A DNA stretch of 20,539 bases from a virus. Under the pieces are notes generated by a model. It did no database searches. It saw nothing but the letters and a program-made list of their open reading frames with translations, and was not told where the DNA came from. Both the position numbers and the translations under genes were made by a program. Below are positions 14,610 through 20,539 of this stretch, one piece after another (position 1 is the stretch's first letter; each line of letters opens with the position of its first letter). The DNA is taken from positions 1 to 20,539 of IMG/VR virus record IMGVR_UViG_3300028025_000978. One strand, given 5' to 3'.

Positions 14610-15186
14610 ATGGGGAGCAGAAGCACAGCCAAAAACCATTTGTGCTATTGATGCCAGCACTAACAGTCTTGCCTTTGCTTTATTTGTTGGTAATCAACTT
14701 GAAAGCATTGGAAAAATTTCTTTTGATGGAAACAATATCTATGAAAAAGTTATGGATGCTGGGAAAAAAGTAAAAGCCTTTTTTGATATTTATGGTGGTT
14801 TTGAAGCAATAGTTATTGAGCATACAGTATTTATGAATAGCCCTAAGACTGCTGCTGATCTTGCATTAGTTCAAGGAGCAATTCTTGGATCAGCAGGACA
14901 ATCTGGAACTAAAATAATTGGCAGAGTTTCTCCAATTACTTGGCAAATTTTTATGGGTAATGGTAAAATATCTAAAGAAGAACAGTTACTGATACGATCT
15001 CAAAATCCTGGAAAGTCTGATTCATACTACAAGGCTCACGAAAGAATGCTTCGTAAAGAAAGAACAATTAATTTTATTAATATTAATTATGATAGAACAA
15101 TTACAGACAATGATGTTGCAGATGCTTGTGGAATTGGTCATTGGGCTGTAAAAAATTGGGATAAGGCGATAGGAGATAAAAAGTAA
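14596..15186 (+). CDS. RuvC-like Holliday junction resolvase
   Basis: 196 residues from ATG 14596 (an in-frame TTG at 14590 is possible; GAAAGG at 14579-14584). The RNase H-fold features are ICAIDAST with D19, IVIEHTVF with E75, an ATP-independent helix SPKTAADLALVQGAILG, VSPITWQIFMG, and a final acidic set TDNDVADACGIGHWA (D171, D173, D176). This order and spacing match RuvC and related phage resolvases, which cut four-way junctions left by recombination and permit packaging of resolved genomes. Slightly longer than RuvC (~170) because of an insertion around LLIRSQNPGKSDS. It overlaps the next ATG by 1 bp. Confidence 0.8.
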   Translation: MSKTKWGAEAQPKTICAIDASTNSLAFALFVGNQLESIGKISFDGNNIYEKVMDAGKKVKAFFDIYGGFEAIVIEHTVFMNSPKTAADLALVQGAILGSAGQSGTKIIGRVSPITWQIFMGNGKISKEEQLLIRSQNPGKSDSYYKAHERMLRKERTINFININYDRTITDNDVADACGIGHWAVKNWDKAIGDKK

Positions 15187-15824
15187 TGCCAGAGTTAAAT
15201 GCAAACATACCACCGATAAACTGTTATGTAAGAGGAAACTATTTAAGAAATCATCAGGACAGCCACGATAAATATTTTGAGTGCGTAGTTTTTGGTGTTT
15301 CAAGTTTAAAATCTAGAAGTCCGCTATTTCATATTATGATGGCAGACGGTGGCCTCTGGTGGAGACTTCCCATTTCTGCCTTTTGTACAGAGCCAGGAGT
15401 TCCTGAAGTTGATCTACATAATCTAGTTCTTTGGAATTCTTTTAGTCATCACATTGCTGTAACAAGATTTGAAAACCTAACAAACCTTAGAATGTCTTAT
15501 ATAGATAGAACAAAAACAATGAATAAGGGAACCTATTTATTTACATTAGACTGGCACAATCCAGACACAAATGTTTTAGATGATGGGTATTCTGAAAGTC
15601 CTGCAGACCACAAGTGTGGCCATGTAATTCAAAGAGATGATGGCAATTTTGCAATTCAGCCTAACAATAGAGTCAGGGTATACGAGCCTTCATTTACGCT
15701 AGAAAAAGAGTATTTGATTGACAGAATAATCAATGAAAAGAAGTATGACGTAGAAAACCAAGACAAGTGGATAATGGAAAACTCTGACAGGTTTAACTAT
15801 AACATTGAAGAAAACAAAGGTTGA
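15186..15824 (+). CDS. Unknown phage protein with conserved-looking W/H motifs
   Basis: 212 residues from ATG 15186 (TAATG junction). Distinct segments: YVRGNYLRN, FHIMMADGGLWWRLPISAFC, LHNLVLWNSFSHHIAVTRF, YLFTLDWHNPDTN and SPADHKCGHVIQRDDGNFAIQPNNRV. The Trp-, His- and Asp-rich motifs read as a beta-rich enzyme-like or binding fold, but I cannot name a family. I recall similar proteins in other phage replication regions annotated only as hypothetical. It closes the replication/recombination block, and its final codons contain the -35 of the next promoter. The reading frame is secure; function unknown. Confidence 0.6.
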   Translation: MPELNANIPPINCYVRGNYLRNHQDSHDKYFECVVFGVSSLKSRSPLFHIMMADGGLWWRLPISAFCTEPGVPEVDLHNLVLWNSFSHHIAVTRFENLTNLRMSYIDRTKTMNKGTYLFTLDWHNPDTNVLDDGYSESPADHKCGHVIQRDDGNFAIQPNNRVRVYEPSFTLEKEYLIDRIINEKKYDVENQDKWIMENSDRFNYNIEENKG

Positions 15825-16122: not shown

Positions 16123-16357
16123 TAATCTTCACATCACTGTTGATCAAGTAAATCATCCTGCACATTACACAACAGATCCTTCTGGTGTTGAATGTATTCA
16201 GATTACTAGACATAGAAATTTTAATATTGGAAATGCTTTTAAGTATTTGTGGAGAGCAGGACTTAAGGATGAAGCAAAAACCATTCAAGATTTAGAAAAG
16301 GCCATCTTTTATATTAAAGATGAAATAAATAGACTAGAGGGAAAGTATGTCAACTGA
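16115..16357 (+). CDS. DUF3310 protein
   Basis: 80 residues from ATG 16115 (GAGG at 16105-16108, 6 nt upstream; ATG 16112 is an alternative). VNHPAHYTTDPSGVECIQIT, then NIGNAFKYLWRAGLK and TIQDLEKAIFYIKDEI reproduce the hallmark NHP.HY...iEci...GNa.KYl.RaG.K...DL.KA..Y pattern of DUF3310. These small proteins are widespread in phages and sometimes annotated as nucleotide-kinase-like, but their function is not established. It ends inside the first codons of the small terminase gene. Confidence 0.85.
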   Translation: MSDNLHITVDQVNHPAHYTTDPSGVECIQITRHRNFNIGNAFKYLWRAGLKDEAKTIQDLEKAIFYIKDEINRLEGKYVN

Positions 16358-16883
16358 GGCAGAACTTATTCAACATCTTGATGAAGTTAATCAAGTGGTT
16401 ACAGAATACCTCAAGGGTAATGATCCTACAGTTATTTCTAAAGAACTAGACATTCCAAGAACTCGTGTTGTATCTTTAATTAATGAGTGGAAGGTTATGG
16501 CATCTGCTAATGATGCTATTCGTGCCCGTGCAAAAGAGGCATTAGTCGGTGCTGACACACACTATACAAAGTTAATTACAAAGGCTTACGAAGTCATTGA
16601 TGAGGCAAGCCTATCAACAAACCTTACAGCAAAGACTGCTGGAATTAAATTAGTTTTAGATATTGAGTCAAGAAGAATTGATATGCTGCAAAAGGCTGGG
16701 CTTCTTGAGAACAAAGAACTTGCAGAAGAAATGATTGAAATTGAAAGACGACAAGAGGTTCTTGTTGGAATCCTAAGAGATATTGCTTCAGAGCATCCAG
16801 AAGTCCGTGACATTATCATGAAAAGACTTTCTGCTATTGCAAAAGAAGGAGAAGTGATTACAGTTGTCCACGATGTTCAATGA
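16347..16883 (+). CDS. terS: Terminase small subunit-like protein
   Basis: 178 residues from ATG 16347 with GAGGGA (16337-16342). The N-terminal region carries a HTH (residues ~25-48, NDPTVISKELDIPRTRVVSL), followed by long helices (AGIKLVLDIESRRIDMLQKA, EEMIEIERRQEVLVGILRDI) suited to ring oligomerisation. A small, HTH-plus-helical protein directly upstream of and overlapping the large terminase is the usual arrangement. It would recognise the packaging site and regulate the motor. Assignment rests on architecture and position; sequence similarity in small terminases is typically low. Confidence 0.75.
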   Translation: MSTEAELIQHLDEVNQVVTEYLKGNDPTVISKELDIPRTRVVSLINEWKVMASANDAIRARAKEALVGADTHYTKLITKAYEVIDEASLSTNLTAKTAGIKLVLDIESRRIDMLQKAGLLENKELAEEMIEIERRQEVLVGILRDIASEHPEVRDIIMKRLSAIAKEGEVITVVHDVQ

Positions 16884-18648
16884 TTTTCTTGAGGTATTAA
16901 AAGAGAATCACTTTGTTGAAACCCCAGTTGACGTAAAGACATTTGTCCAGTCACCTGATTATCTTGGTCAACCACTTTTATCTGATATCCAGTACGAAAT
17001 TGTTGAGGCAATGAGCCAGATCTATCGTAAAGAAGATTTGATAGACATCATGGGAGATGTTGAAGGAAATAAACACTTTAGTAAGTACACCAAAAATGAA
17101 TTAATCCTTCAACTTGGCAAGGGTAGTGGTAAAGATTTTATCTCAACAGTAGCCTGTGCATATGTAGTATATAAACTATTATGTCTTAAAGACCCTGCAA
17201 TTTATTATGGTAAGCCTGCAGGAGATGCCATTGATATTATCAACGTTGCTGTTAACGCACAGCAGGCAAAGAACGTTTTCTTTAAAGGTTTTAAAACAAA
17301 GATTGAGAAGTCACCTTGGTTTGCTGGAAAGTATAATGCAAAGGCTGACTCAATTGAGTTTGACAAAGCCATTACTGTTTACTCTGGACACTCAGAAAGA
17401 GAATCTCATGAGGGTTTAAACTTACTTATGGCAGTACTTGATGAGATTTCTGGTTTTGCAAGTGAGGTTGTATCTGGAAATGAACAAGGAAAGACTGCCG
17501 ATAATATCTATAAAGCATTTCGTGGAACTGTAGACTCTCGTTTTCCAGATCTTGGTAAAGTAGTTTTGCTTTCTTTCCCACGATATCAAGGTGACTTTAT
17601 TTCTCAGCGATACGAATCTGTTATTGCTGACAAAGAAACTATTGAAAGAACACACACATTTATTATGAATGAAGATTTGCCACACGACGATCCAGGCAAT
17701 CAATTTCAAATTTCCTGGGATGAAGATAATATACTTCAATACAAAATTCCAAGGGTATATGCATTTAAAAGACCTACGTGGGAAGTAAACCCAACCCGTA
17801 AGATAGAAGACTTTAAACTAGCCTTCTATACAGACCTTGGTGATGCTATGATGCGTTTTGCATGTATGCCAACTTATTCCTCTGATGCTTTCTTTAAACA
17901 GATTGACAAAGTTGAGAAGTGTATGAACACTAGAAACCCACTAGACTCGTTTAGAAGGTTTGACGAAACCTTTGTACCAGACCCAGAAAAAACATATTAT
18001 ATTCATGCTGACCTTGCACAAAAACACGATAAGTGTGCGGTAGCAATTGCTCACGTAGACAAGTGGGTAAATATCCAGGTAATTAAAGACTACGAACAAG
18101 TAGCACCAATTGTAGTAGTAGATGCAGTTGCATGGTGGGAGCCAAGAGCAGAAGGCCCAGTTAATCTATCTGAAGTTAAGCAATGGATTATGAACCTACG
18201 CAGACAAGGGTTTAATATTGGAATGGTTTCATTTGACCGTTGGCAATCATTTGATATTCAAAATGAGTTGCAAGCAGTTGGAATTAGGACTGAGACTGTC
18301 TCTGTTGCCAAGAAGCACTACGAGGATCTGGCTATGATGATTTACGAAGAGCGTGTTTCTATTCCAAGAATCCCTATCCTGTTAGAAGAAATGTCAGAAC
18401 TTAAAATTATGAAGGGTAATCGTGTTGATCACCCACGTAAAAAATCTAAGGACTTGGCAGATGCTGTAACTGGAGCGGTATTTGGAGCAATATCACACAC
18501 ACCAAAGAATAATAATACTGAGATAGATGTCCATACCTGGTCTTCTTCTGCACGAGTTGCAGAGAAAGACAGGGGTATGGTAGAATTAGATAATCGGAAA
18601 ATGCCTGACGATGTTAGGGATTTTTTAGACGGCTTTAACTTAATTTAA
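16864..18648 (+). CDS. terL: Terminase large subunit
   Basis: 594 residues from TTG 16864 (GAAGGAGAAG at 16845-16854) or 591 from ATG 16873. Residue numbers here use ATG 16873. The ATPase has Walker A LGKGSGKD with K87 and Walker B LLMAVLDEIS with D190-E191. The RNase H-like nuclease shows D380 (YIHADLAQ), D455 (VSFDRWQS) and D527/D530 (DLADAVTG). Both halves look intact, so motor and cutting activities are expected. It packages the genome into preformed heads; portal and head genes are normally just downstream but are replaced here, within the window, by two exported proteins. Confidence 0.95.
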   Translation: MSTMFNDFLEVLKENHFVETPVDVKTFVQSPDYLGQPLLSDIQYEIVEAMSQIYRKEDLIDIMGDVEGNKHFSKYTKNELILQLGKGSGKDFISTVACAYVVYKLLCLKDPAIYYGKPAGDAIDIINVAVNAQQAKNVFFKGFKTKIEKSPWFAGKYNAKADSIEFDKAITVYSGHSERESHEGLNLLMAVLDEISGFASEVVSGNEQGKTADNIYKAFRGTVDSRFPDLGKVVLLSFPRYQGDFISQRYESVIADKETIERTHTFIMNEDLPHDDPGNQFQISWDEDNILQYKIPRVYAFKRPTWEVNPTRKIEDFKLAFYTDLGDAMMRFACMPTYSSDAFFKQIDKVEKCMNTRNPLDSFRRFDETFVPDPEKTYYIHADLAQKHDKCAVAIAHVDKWVNIQVIKDYEQVAPIVVVDAVAWWEPRAEGPVNLSEVKQWIMNLRRQGFNIGMVSFDRWQSFDIQNELQAVGIRTETVSVAKKHYEDLAMMIYEERVSIPRIPILLEEMSELKIMKGNRVDHPRKKSKDLADAVTGAVFGAISHTPKNNNTEIDVHTWSSSARVAEKDRGMVELDNRKMPDDVRDFLDGFNLI

Positions 18649-18690
18649 CTTTCTGGTCATGGGATCAGATAAAACTAACAAGGAGAAAGA

Positions 18691-19818
18691 ATGAATTCAT
18701 TCAAGAAAATCGCACTAGCCATGGTTGCAGCCATGACTTTGGGCACAATCGTAGCAACACCTGCAAGTGCTGCTGTAATGACAGTCGCTGTATCATTGGA
18801 TTCTGTAGCAAACACTACAGCATCAGCAATTGCTACACCTGCTGCATTGCCAGTTCCTGCAGATAACTCAGTTGACGCTGCTGACGCACTTAAGTTCGTA
18901 GCAACAGTAGATGCTGGAACATCAGTAACAGCAGTTGCAACAAACGCAACAATCGTGTCTGCACTACACACAACCGCTGCACCAGTAGGAGCAACTTCAG
19001 GATCATCATCTTTGACAATTGCAACTGGTACAGGAACAACTGCAACATTTTATGTCTACACAAAGACAACAGCAATTGGTACAGTAACAATTACTAACCA
19101 AGGTACAACTTTTACATACTATGTACAGGGAACTGCGGGTAAGATTAATAATCTAACAGTATCGGCTCCTGCAAACGGTGCTGCTGGTACAAAGCAGGAC
19201 GTTCTAGTTACAGCAACAGACGTATTTGGAAACAAGGTTTCTGGTAAGTCAATCACTGCAACTGTATTTGCTGCAACAGCAACAGTTGACACAGCAACAG
19301 TATCAACTGGTGCAACACTTTCAGATTTTGGAGTTGCAAAGTTTAGCGCAACACTTCCAGCAACTGGAACACGTTCACTAATTATGTTTGCTCCAACAAC
19401 TTCAACAGATGCTGCATCTGCAGATGTAGTTGGTCTAACTGCTCGTACTCTTGCACCATTTGCAGAAATTGCAGTTCGTGATCTAGTATCAGAACTTGCT
19501 GCTGAAAAGGCTGCAAAGGATGCAGCAATCGCTGCGAAGGCTGTTGCAGATGCTGCAGTTGTAAAGGCTGCTGCTGATGCAGTTGCTGCTAAGGCTGCTT
19601 CAGATGCTGCTCTTGTAGCAGAAAAGGCTGCTTCAGCAAAGGCACTAGCAGATGCAAAGGTTGCTTCAGATGCAGCACTTGCTGCTAAGGATGCAGTAAT
19701 TGCTAAGTTGACTGCAGACAATGCAGCAACATTGGCAAAGATCAAGGCATCATTTAATGCACTTGCCAAGCAGTGGAACACAAAGAATCCAAAGGCAAAG
19801 GTTGCTCTACTTAAGTAA
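18691..19818 (+). CDS. Exported Ala-rich Ig-like/coiled-coil protein
   Basis: 375 residues from ATG 18691 with AAGGAGA (18680-18686). A signal peptide (residues 1-27; basic MNSFKK, hydrophobic core ALAMVAAMTLGTIVA, cleavage after PASA) is clear. Residues ~28-150 are Thr/Ala/Val-rich beta strands; ~151-250 resemble a bacterial Ig-like (Big_1 type) domain, with VLVTATDVFGNKVSGK. Residues ~264-345 are an Ala/Lys/Asp-rich helix of repeats starting with KA or KV, and the end is basic. Nearly all lysines use AAG. It sits behind the large terminase and is closed by a terminator. It could be a host-derived surface protein, a secreted phage product or a virion component; no family is certain. Confidence 0.7.
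   Translation: MNSFKKIALAMVAAMTLGTIVATPASAAVMTVAVSLDSVANTTASAIATPAALPVPADNSVDAADALKFVATVDAGTSVTAVATNATIVSALHTTAAPVGATSGSSSLTIATGTGTTATFYVYTKTTAIGTVTITNQGTTFTYYVQGTAGKINNLTVSAPANGAAGTKQDVLVTATDVFGNKVSGKSITATVFAATATVDTATVSTGATLSDFGVAKFSATLPATGTRSLIMFAPTTSTDAASADVVGLTARTLAPFAEIAVRDLVSELAAEKAAKDAAIAAKAVADAAVVKAAADAVAAKAASDAALVAEKAASAKALADAKVASDAALAAKDAVIAKLTADNAATLAKIKASFNALAKQWNTKNPKAKVALLK
19507..19690 (+). repeat. Degenerate Ala-rich coding repeat
   Basis: Units beginning K(A/V)(A/V)..DA start at residues 273, 283, 292, 301, 312 and 323 of the exported protein (nt 19507, 19537, 19564, 19591, 19624, 19657). The last three starts are exactly 33 nt apart, an 11-residue period. A 25-nt segment at 19591-19615 matches 19657-19681 with three mismatches. 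Confidence 0.6.
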
Positions 19819-19835: not shown

Positions 19836-19867
19836 GGGAGTCAGGAAACTGGCTCCCTTTCTTTTTG
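19836..19867 (+). terminator. Rho-independent terminator
   Basis: GGGAGTCA (19836-19843), loop GGAAAC, then TGGCTCCC (19850-19857): an 8-bp stem with one G-T pair, followed by TTTCTTTTTG. It lies 18 nt after the stop of the Ala-rich exported gene and is the only strong terminator I see in the window. Confidence 0.85.
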
Positions 19868-19890: not shown

Positions 19891-19899
19891 TGATATAAT
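19891..19899 (+). promoter_or_regulatory. Extended -10 promoter for last gene
   Basis: TGATATAAT with no good -35 at normal spacing. It lies in the intergenic gap between the terminator and the final gene, and the string TTTGATATAATA also occurs at the promoter candidate near 3955. Transcription near 19906 would leave AGGAGAG as a very short leader. Confidence 0.5.
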
Positions 19900-19921: not shown

Positions 19922-20539
19922 TTGAATAAACTCTTGCGTATATTTACAGTTTTATTACTTGCTTTTGGATGGTTATTTATAGCACCAACAGAGGCTAATT
20001 CTGACGACCCTCTAACAGTTGCAGCCCAAAAGATTCAAAACCTTAATAGTGCAGTAGATAAATTAGACTACAAAGACGGTTTAATAGGCATGATTGACAT
20101 AGCAGAGAACAAGTTTATGTATGCTAAAAATCTGCGGGATGTCAGAGATGATGCTCAAGAAGACTATGAAGATGCAGTAGAGGCAGAAGAGTTAGCCTTA
20201 GATGCAGTAGAACTTGCCCAGTCAAATGTAGATGGCCAGACAGTAACAGTAGAACTTGCCCTTGATCATAAAGAAGATGCCCTGCAAGACAAGAATGATG
20301 CACAGGATGCTCTCAACATAGCCAACATCAACCTTCAAACAGCACAATCAAATATGCAATCTGCTGGAGGGCAAGGTTTGGCATATACCGTTTATCATTT
20401 GACAAGAACATTTCCTGGTATAGCAACTCCAAGTGGAGTCATTTGTTCTGGCACTTGGAACTCAAACTCTATGCAACTTCCTGTTTGTGGCAATAGATAT
20501 GAAAATTTTGTAGTTAAATTTACTGGACAGATAACAGTT
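19922..20539 (+). CDS. Exported coiled-coil protein (3' partial)
   Basis: 206 residues are visible from TTG 19922, 8 nt after AAGAGGAGAG (19904-19913); the frame is still open at the window end. A signal peptide is clear (MNKLLRIFTVLLLAFGWLFI, cleavage probably after PTEA, residue 25). Residues ~30-145 are acidic, Ala/Gln/Asp-rich helix predicted to coil (DDAQEDYEDAVEAEELALDA). From G152 a beta domain begins (GLAYTVYHLTRTFPG, VICSGTWNSN, LPVCGNRYENF) with two Cys that could pair. The start of this domain is faintly like PA14-type carbohydrate-binding modules, a weak call. Together with the gene before it, it forms a pair of exported proteins where head genes would be expected. Confidence 0.65.
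   Translation, partial: MNKLLRIFTVLLLAFGWLFIAPTEANSDDPLTVAAQKIQNLNSAVDKLDYKDGLIGMIDIAENKFMYAKNLRDVRDDAQEDYEDAVEAEELALDAVELAQSNVDGQTVTVELALDHKEDALQDKNDAQDALNIANINLQTAQSNMQSAGGQGLAYTVYHLTRTFPGIATPSGVICSGTWNSNSMQLPVCGNRYENFVVKFTGQITV

Follow-up and report, generated by a model that had tools for sequence, protein, structure and literature searches.

The window, that is, the whole stretch of 20,539 nucleotides analysed here (IMG/VR record IMGVR_UViG_3300028025_000978), carries on its plus strand an open reading frame at positions 18691–19818 that starts with ATG and encodes a protein of 375 aa, predicted to be exported. Directly 5′ of it lies terL, the gene for the terminase large subunit (16864–18648, +), which matches phrog_2 (E 2.3e-15) and whose product is 54% identical to the terminases of Streptomyces phages such as Yaboi (Stanwilliamsviridae); terL is in turn preceded by a gene for a 178-aa protein (16347–16883, +; phrog_9507, E 1.8e-45), which served as our linkage control. 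Farther upstream, positions 15186–15824 encode a 212-aa protein matching phrog_3704 (E 5.5e-60), a family labelled ferredoxin or host takeover.

The exported gene is framed by expression signals of its own, as the earlier note had claimed. A ribosome binding site, AAGGAG, is found at 18680–18685 (+), and a comparable site precedes the gene in 77 of 78 loci under a lenient pattern. Just 5′ of this site sits a small leader hairpin of the form TTCTG...CAGA (18651–18669, +), recognised from pattern counts, folds and position; counterparts with differing stem sequences occur in 17 of 76 loci (lenient pattern) and in both genomic arrangements described below. Downstream, an intrinsic terminator with a 9-bp stem, one mismatch and a T run spans 19836–19866 (+), and its hairpin score was reached by none of 300 shuffles. 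A hairpin also follows the gene in all 77 relatives with enough sequence, as judged by a lenient rule without shuffles, and in 72 of these 77 loci at least four T occur within the eight bases after it.

Beyond what the earlier note had described, the next gene (19922–20539, +, truncated at the contig end) encodes, judging from its full-length counterpart, a second exported protein. It is preceded by a TATAAT box (19894–19899, +) that recurs in relatives by eye. The full-length counterpart in locus L001 (11232–13427) is a 732-aa protein with a signal peptide, a coiled coil, a PA14 domain (E 1.8e-6 on this copy) and a Pro-rich spacer. The slot occupied by this second gene also varies, holding, for example, proteins of more than 800 aa that start MTNLKRRL or MPSIEKIL. 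A count of 73 matches to the PA14 gene among 80 loci was set aside, as it includes distant, probably coiled-coil matches. When the PA14 neighbour was compared with 296 host genomes, four matches were obtained, a single one of which (E 5.8e-12) lies over the PA14 stretch, the others falling in the Pro-rich part.

Residues 1–27 of the window protein (18691–18771, +) constitute, by eye and by a simple rule, a classical signal peptide with the start MNSFKK, a hydrophobic core and the cleavage site ASA^A; the six codons at its beginning stay constant in the cassette discussed below. K5, K6, A25 and A27 are invariant in this region across 58 aligned rows, which agrees with the signal peptide proposed earlier, and the protein is thus probably exported or secreted. 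The mature chain contains no cysteine. At the other end, a basic tail (residues 346–375; 19726–19815, +), delimited by residue composition and conservation, counts seven basic and no acidic residues among its last 30, with F355, N356, L358, A359, W362, N363, K365, N366, P367, A369 and K370 invariant in the 58 rows. A sortase motif was sought by eye in the window protein and was not found, nor was a C-terminal membrane segment.

As the earlier note had proposed among its checks, the structure was predicted: AlphaFold2 was given the mature chain, starting at residue 27, and an alignment that included two host relatives. The resulting model (mean pLDDT 87, pTM 0.66) superseded a first one, built with the signal peptide and without the host rows, in which domain 1 was poor. 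Where a single Ig-like domain and a long Ala/Lys/Asp helix had been claimed, the model contains two tandem Ig-like domains, at residues 28–150 (18772–19140, +) and 151–262 (19141–19476, +), both with approximate limits, followed by one long helix spanning residues 265–365. The Ala/Lys/Asp stalk proper is assigned, from this helix and from homologue lengths, to residues 263–345 (19477–19725, +). Homologues differ in length mostly by combinations of 7 and 11 residues, with a few other steps, as expected of a coiled coil.

Both Ig-like domains together resemble invasin (Z 11.9, rmsd 6.9 over 177 residues), intimin (Z 11.6, rmsd 5.9 over 174 residues) and FdeC (Z 10.8, rmsd 3.9 over 181 residues), and the S-layer protein SbsB matches the model in Foldseek with an E-value of 1.1e-6. 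The best Z-score, however, belongs to domain 2 compared with the neck chain of phage Chi (Z 12.4, rmsd 1.8 over 93 residues), and in a viral structure library searched with the first model a major tail protein ranked second with a TM-score of 0.27, another phage structural protein reaching 0.22. Ig-like folds are common, and these matches therefore indicate the kind of protein rather than its function. A solved relative was also sought by sequence; the best candidate, at E 0.068, was rejected.

No family in Pfam or PHROG, searched at E-values up to 1, or in NCBIfam matches the window protein; in particular, neither Pfam nor NCBIfam places an SLH or other known wall-anchor domain in it. Likewise, no enzymatic family was found in the slot proteins examined, and the 50,697 phage records of INPHARED contain no match to the window protein or to the other types of slot protein (three types in all). 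Head or decoration proteins, which the earlier note had named as the homologues that would speak against its reading, are thus absent by sequence from Pfam, PHROG and the phage records, and assignment as a head, decoration or tail protein by homology was rejected, there being no Pfam, PHROG or NCBIfam family and no phage-record match.

We identified at least 438 relatives of the window protein in IMG/VR and used the best 80 of them. WhiB, which has been suggested as an actinophage indicator (PMC10202952), is encoded in 12 of 13 long carrier records. Upstream of terL, the gene order is similar to that of Streptomyces phages such as Yaboi, with DnaE, UvsX, exonuclease and RuvC; in these phages, an HNH endonuclease rather than an exported gene follows terL. 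The exported gene is single-copy in all 13 long records, the split matches seen in four records each representing one gene. Among the loci of the best 80 relatives with room upstream, TerL was found in 68 of 76, and where terL is the neighbour, 12–49 bases separate it from the exported gene.

The remaining eight of these 76 loci show a second arrangement, in which the exported gene lies behind a thioredoxin-like gene and a signal-peptide gene that we take, by motif, to be subtilase-like; this neighbourhood was examined in seven of the eight loci, and one, G003, was read whole. In seven loci (L004, L005, L007, L027, L051, L052 and L080), a signal-peptide protein of 332–381 aa is encoded upstream of the exported gene. 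Its ILDTA.DTS stretch resembles the catalytic Asp motif of subtilases, and the protein is possibly a phage-encoded secreted protease.

The earlier note had assumed that portal and head genes normally occupy the slot behind terL. This premise does not hold in the long record G001, where portal, protease and capsid genes lie at 31–35 kb, terL at 69.8 kb and the exported gene at 71.6 kb, so that portal and capsid genes are more than 35 kb away from the slot. The same distance bears on whether the product might be an accessory fibre or decoration of the virion, joined to particles after export or at lysis. Ig-like domains combined with a coiled coil do resemble phage decoration and whisker proteins, and the structural likeness of domain 2 to the Chi neck chain, the major tail protein in the viral structure list and the capsid-like codon use set out below point the same way. 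Nevertheless, a cleavable signal peptide clashes with the assembly of tailed phages in the cytoplasm, a protein of the host chromosome is the nearest relative by sequence beyond the carriers' own phage family, PHROG returned no match, and the gene is remote from the structural genes; we regard a virion component as decidedly unlikely.

Downstream of the exported and PA14 genes, G001 encodes a weakly holin-like protein (phrog_443, E 0.0044) and a CHAP endolysin. It also carries, at 75644–76168 (L090), a gene for an HslV/proteasome-like peptidase (phrog_1040, E 1.7e-22) with a tblastn match in 40 of 80 loci. The position upstream of the holin-like and endolysin genes would suit a protein that assists in lysis or in remodelling the wall at a late stage of infection, yet the gene is elsewhere in the second arrangement, the slot proteins examined belong to no enzymatic family, and a lysis component would not be expected to have interchangeable ectodomains. 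Such a role is, in our view, highly improbable.

Codon use sets the exported gene apart from terL: its lysines are encoded by 25 AAG and one AAA, which bears out the nearly uniform AAG usage noted before, compared with 20 AAG and 26 AAA in terL. A codon index was derived from two genes in each of three long records (relatives of 106–117 kb), the one for the major capsid protein and the one presumed to encode the major tail protein; in G001, the capsid gene was assigned by phrog_1623 (E 5e-73) and the tail gene by its place and a phrog_2175 Ig-domain match, while in the other two records both were assigned by order and likeness. The exported gene ranks 2nd of 104, 4th of 115 and 8th of 103 genes by codon adaptation, and 4th, 5th and 3rd once Ala and Thr codons are disregarded; terL ranks 23rd, 27th and 52nd in the same records. 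The very high expression claimed earlier is supported in so far as codon use can support it: the exported gene appears to be highly expressed, like capsid and tail proteins, a bias that speaks for expression and not for its timing. A host gene that we take by eye to be LivK-like likewise uses AAG as its only lysine codon (26 of 26).

What occupies the slot in other phages was examined by a TerL-based search, from which the best 80 of at least 599 loci, hence close relatives, were taken. In 70 loci with at least 600 bases past terL, tblastn (E 1e-10) detected the window type in 26 and no match in 44. The slot ORF was readable in 72 of 76 new loci, and every one of these 72 proteins starts with MNS[FL]K[KR], one of them after trimming of an upstream start. 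By a stricter profile, 23 slot proteins scored as the window type and the other 49 did not. All 49 match the signal-peptide profile, one matches ectodomain 1, none ectodomain 2 and seven the tail, with the proviso that 11 of them are cut by contig ends, some being too short to include the ectodomain. Those exceeding 300 aa, 43 of the 49, fall into two BLAST groups of 34 and 9 proteins. Weak resemblance to Big_1 was seen in two of five slot variants, at 17.6 and 17.7 bits, below the cut-off of 34.9.

At the nucleotide level, ungapped comparison between types, with subsets of 3–10 loci from each, gives 89–93% likeness over bases 1–18, 48–65% over the next 63 bases and 36–38% over the following 150; by the same ungapped measure, the corresponding values within the window type are 93, 70 and 57%. 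In two members of the nine-protein group (L190 and L210), the last segment is the module that also terminates exported proteins of Planktophila, its core sharing 18 of 21 and 16 of 21 residues, respectively, with the nearest host copy. Scanning for the module motif gave 9 positives among 56 host loci and 2 among 183 phage loci, counts that are not frequencies, since the loci overlap and the host ones lie mostly around one junction. These comparisons identify the slot after terL as a swap cassette, in which the same signal-peptide start is followed by different ectodomains; that it holds interchangeable exported proteins is the second respect in which our analysis goes beyond the earlier note.

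If neighbouring genes are inherited together, the pairwise identities of their proteins should agree, which we assessed with Mantel correlations. Agreement with TerL is high for the 178-aa protein (r 0.88, n = 47) and RuvC (r 0.63, n = 41), and low for the exported protein (r 0.23, n = 55), although the latter value still lies above all 200 permutations. By this measure, the history of the exported gene is largely decoupled from that of terL, the link being weak rather than absent. Parts of the exported protein also correlate poorly with one another (0.16–0.40); this suggests mosaic genes, although noise may account for some of the low values, the protein being of low complexity. At the ATG, DNA identity changes abruptly, falling or rising, in the seven pairs viewed, chosen as the most discordant: L012 and L071 are 88–100% identical in the terL stretch shown and 73–87% inside the exported gene, while the opposite applies to L019 and L026 (60–81% and 87–97%) and to L014 and L020 (62–88% and 95–100%).

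The distant relatives G001 and G003 share an exported protein at 82% and a PA14 protein at 80% identity, compared with 55% for TerL and 40% for the capsid, and these two are the most alike of the 49 shared proteins of at least 90 aa in this one pair; between G001 and G006, the exported protein ranks fifth of 78. Within the window type, dN/dS is 0.24, compared with 0.07 for TerL (150 sampled pairs each). This value denotes purifying constraint, and it gives no sign of point-by-point diversifying selection.

The earlier note had raised the possibility of a captured host surface protein and had called for a search against host and phage proteins. Kinship with the host was indeed found. A profile search over 296 Nanopelagicales genomes gave four matches, two of them strong (E 3.1e-55 and 1.5e-38) and two partial ones at E 0.003, which we rejected; the host homologue is 43% identical to the window protein over 246 aa, covering both Ig-like domains. 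G160 and G211, the two genomes with the homologue, are members of the genus in which P. lacus is also placed. The G160 homologue (G160:C45, 343 aa) is full length, with a signal peptide, both Ig-like domains and the Ala/Lys/Asp helix, and the host homologue shares with the phage protein a Sec signal peptide ending, by eye, in AxA and an N.LA motif near its end; the G160 copy lacks the KNPKAKV end. The G211 copy is split by contig ends over two contigs and occupies the same chromosomal place. The window protein is thus supported as host-like, that is, as kin to a host chromosomal protein. Capture by the phage from the host, in contrast, is at most a possible direction of transfer, because the phage and host clades cannot be rooted and the carriers are just 2 of 296 host genomes. 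Base composition was considered as a sign of capture from a host and rejected: GC is raised, but GC3 is 0.18–0.19 against a phage median of about 0.18–0.24.

The relative remained confined to these genomes in wider samples (2 of 394 genomes for the class and 1 of 396 for the phylum, the same genomes in each case). With the host protein as query, 3 of 296 genomes matched, the third (E 4.5e-4) partially. The profile found no match in five freshwater actinobacterial (acI) genomes, reached via a 16S pattern and including Ca. Planktophila versatilis and lacus. A scan of the genome collection with the alignment returned 28 pattern stretches and no relative, which is weak evidence given that two patterns were used, and the host protein met six pattern stretches and no relative in viral contigs and no match in phage records. 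The type C ectodomain (L217) found no counterpart in 20 host genomes, a comparison that shows little, as it had no positive control. The tail alone matched in 3 of 135 Planktophila genomes, two of these being the known homologues. The third match, 14 residues in a LivK-like protein (E 0.002, one of 135 genomes), was treated as chance; this host protein, LivK-like by eye (L165, 580–1734), holds NAKNPKVKVTLVK, nearly the phage tail and probably so by chance.

The G160 homologue sits between two aminotransferase genes, which we take to be those of class III and class V enzymes. Among 30 loci of the class V gene, the aminotransferase genes are adjacent in 17, separated by an insert in 6 and not judged in 7; the homologue makes up two of the six inserts (L117 and L128), and the empty junctions include two genomes whose flanking proteins are 98–99% identical to those of G160. 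Elsewhere, the junction holds exported proteins ending in the C.KG...K.VT...P.CP.GY module (L121–L123) or another gene (L134). The aminotransferase junction in Planktophila (host loci L117–L146) is a variable site, and the host copy is, on its distribution, an accessory gene there. Its codon bias is not that of high expression, AAG accounting for 10 of 20 and 5 of 12 lysine codons.

Such mobility might befit a passenger gene (moron) that moves between phages and hosts and plays no part in the lytic cycle, being useful, for instance, to surviving cells. The cassette is self-contained and found at two positions in phage genomes, and host copies lie at a variable chromosomal junction. Still, all 72 readable slots past terL hold some type of exported protein, and the codon adaptation is capsid-like, both of which argue for a regular role in infection and make a mere passenger quite improbable.

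Considering the export signal, the capsid-like codons, the accessory, surface-type host kin and the exchange of ectodomains together, the product is best read as a protein displayed on the surface of the infected cell. We therefore tentatively propose that the gene belongs to a swappable surface-protein cassette of large freshwater Nanopelagicales (Planktophila) actinophages whose product coats the infected cell and blocks rivals, a reading that we find plausible while stopping short of calling it probable. Its starting point is the predicted composition of the protein, namely a Sec-type signal peptide, two Ig-like domains, a helical stalk and a basic tail, with a full-length relative in a host chromosome. 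Codon use, the separate ribosome site and the terminator suggest that it is made in large amounts, like capsid and tail proteins. Export during infection would then allow the stalk and basic tail to stick to the cell wall, leaving the infected cell coated with a host-like protein. Such a coat could keep rival phages from attaching or their DNA from entering, and it might also stop progeny from sticking to the dying cell and debris. Finally, the cassette is swapped among relatives: the first codons stay and the exposed domains are replaced, as would be anticipated if the exposed surface must fit changing hosts and competitors.

Several observations run against this coat. In the 135 Planktophila genomes searched, the tail occurs only in the two homologues and the one chance-level match, phage structural proteins appear among the structure matches, and the dN/dS value gives no sign of point-by-point diversification. 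Furthermore, attachment to the wall is a conjecture based on the basic tail, given that neither a sortase motif nor a C-terminal membrane segment was seen. These two absences, combined with the signal peptide, would suit a soluble factor freed during infection or lysis, serving as a decoy or acting on neighbouring bacteria or grazers, and high-expression codon use and Ig-like domains of the adhesin kind are compatible with it as well. The conserved basic tail, however, fits attachment better than free diffusion, and two variants carry the C-terminal module of host exported proteins, whose wall binding is itself putative. A soluble factor is accordingly an unlikely, though not negligible, alternative to the surface coat.

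Returning to the surface protein, a bolder version is possible, and we hold it with more doubt: the slot might be a dedicated surface-variation locus, with a constant start, exchangeable Ig-like ectodomains and end pieces, some of them host-type, and capsid-level expression, which repaints the infected cell and thereby excludes rivals. If so, it would be the infected-cell counterpart of antigenic variation. More generally, if large Nanopelagicales phages carry exchangeable surface proteins, competition between phages would take place partly on the infected-cell surface, and phages that shut one another out could be classed by their ectodomain type. Many freshwaters are dominated by Nanopelagicales, whose microdiversity has been seen as a response to heavy predation by phages; cultures of Planktophila exist, as do two isolated phages of another, 39-kb kind (PMC10202952). 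In the open-access literature, as far as titles and the beginnings of abstracts go, we recognised no such actinophage cassette, a negative that carries little weight; six terms relating to secretion and surface proteins do not occur in PMC6802176, and extracts of PMC12143481 hold nothing relevant to an exported cassette.

Among the closest known systems are two phage proteins linked to superinfection exclusion, Ltp of phage TP-J34 and gp41 of the Cutibacterium acnes phage Aquarius, which, as is predicted for the window protein, are exported in infected Gram-positive cells. In C. acnes phages, gp41 is a signal-peptide protein proposed to act in superinfection resistance, and it is conserved across these phages, with strong expression (PMC11480721). 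It differs from the window protein in its predicted N-terminal membrane segment and its fold. Both Ltp and gp41 are smaller and fold differently, a point against the proposed coat, and the extracts of their sources describe no swapping of ectodomains. A lipoprotein of the Ltp type has a lipobox cysteine and repeated HTH, whereas the mature window protein has no cysteine, belongs to no Pfam family and consists of Ig-like domains and a helix.

Head decoration and fibre proteins are encoded with the head genes and lack a cleaved signal, in contrast to the window gene, with its signal peptide and its place at 71.6 kb in G001. The chromosomal Planktophila protein is, unlike the phage gene, accessory (2 of 296 genomes) and without high-expression codon bias. 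In architecture, the tandem Ig-like domains recall invasin, intimin, FdeC, SbsB and SbsC; the resemblance to these invasin-type and S-layer proteins is structural, sequence identity being below 20% and Pfam Big_1 giving no match. Pelagimyophages, whose host is another streamlined aquatic bacterium, widely carry curli-related and secretion-related genes (PMC7029224); these are other proteins in other hosts, likened here by description rather than by sequence comparison. The same kind of likeness, by description, holds for CwpV, a surface protein of Clostridioides difficile that acts in a manner resembling superinfection exclusion, does not stop adsorption and apparently acts at DNA entry (PMC4737114): it is of the surface type, as we propose for the window protein, and differs from it in being encoded by the host.
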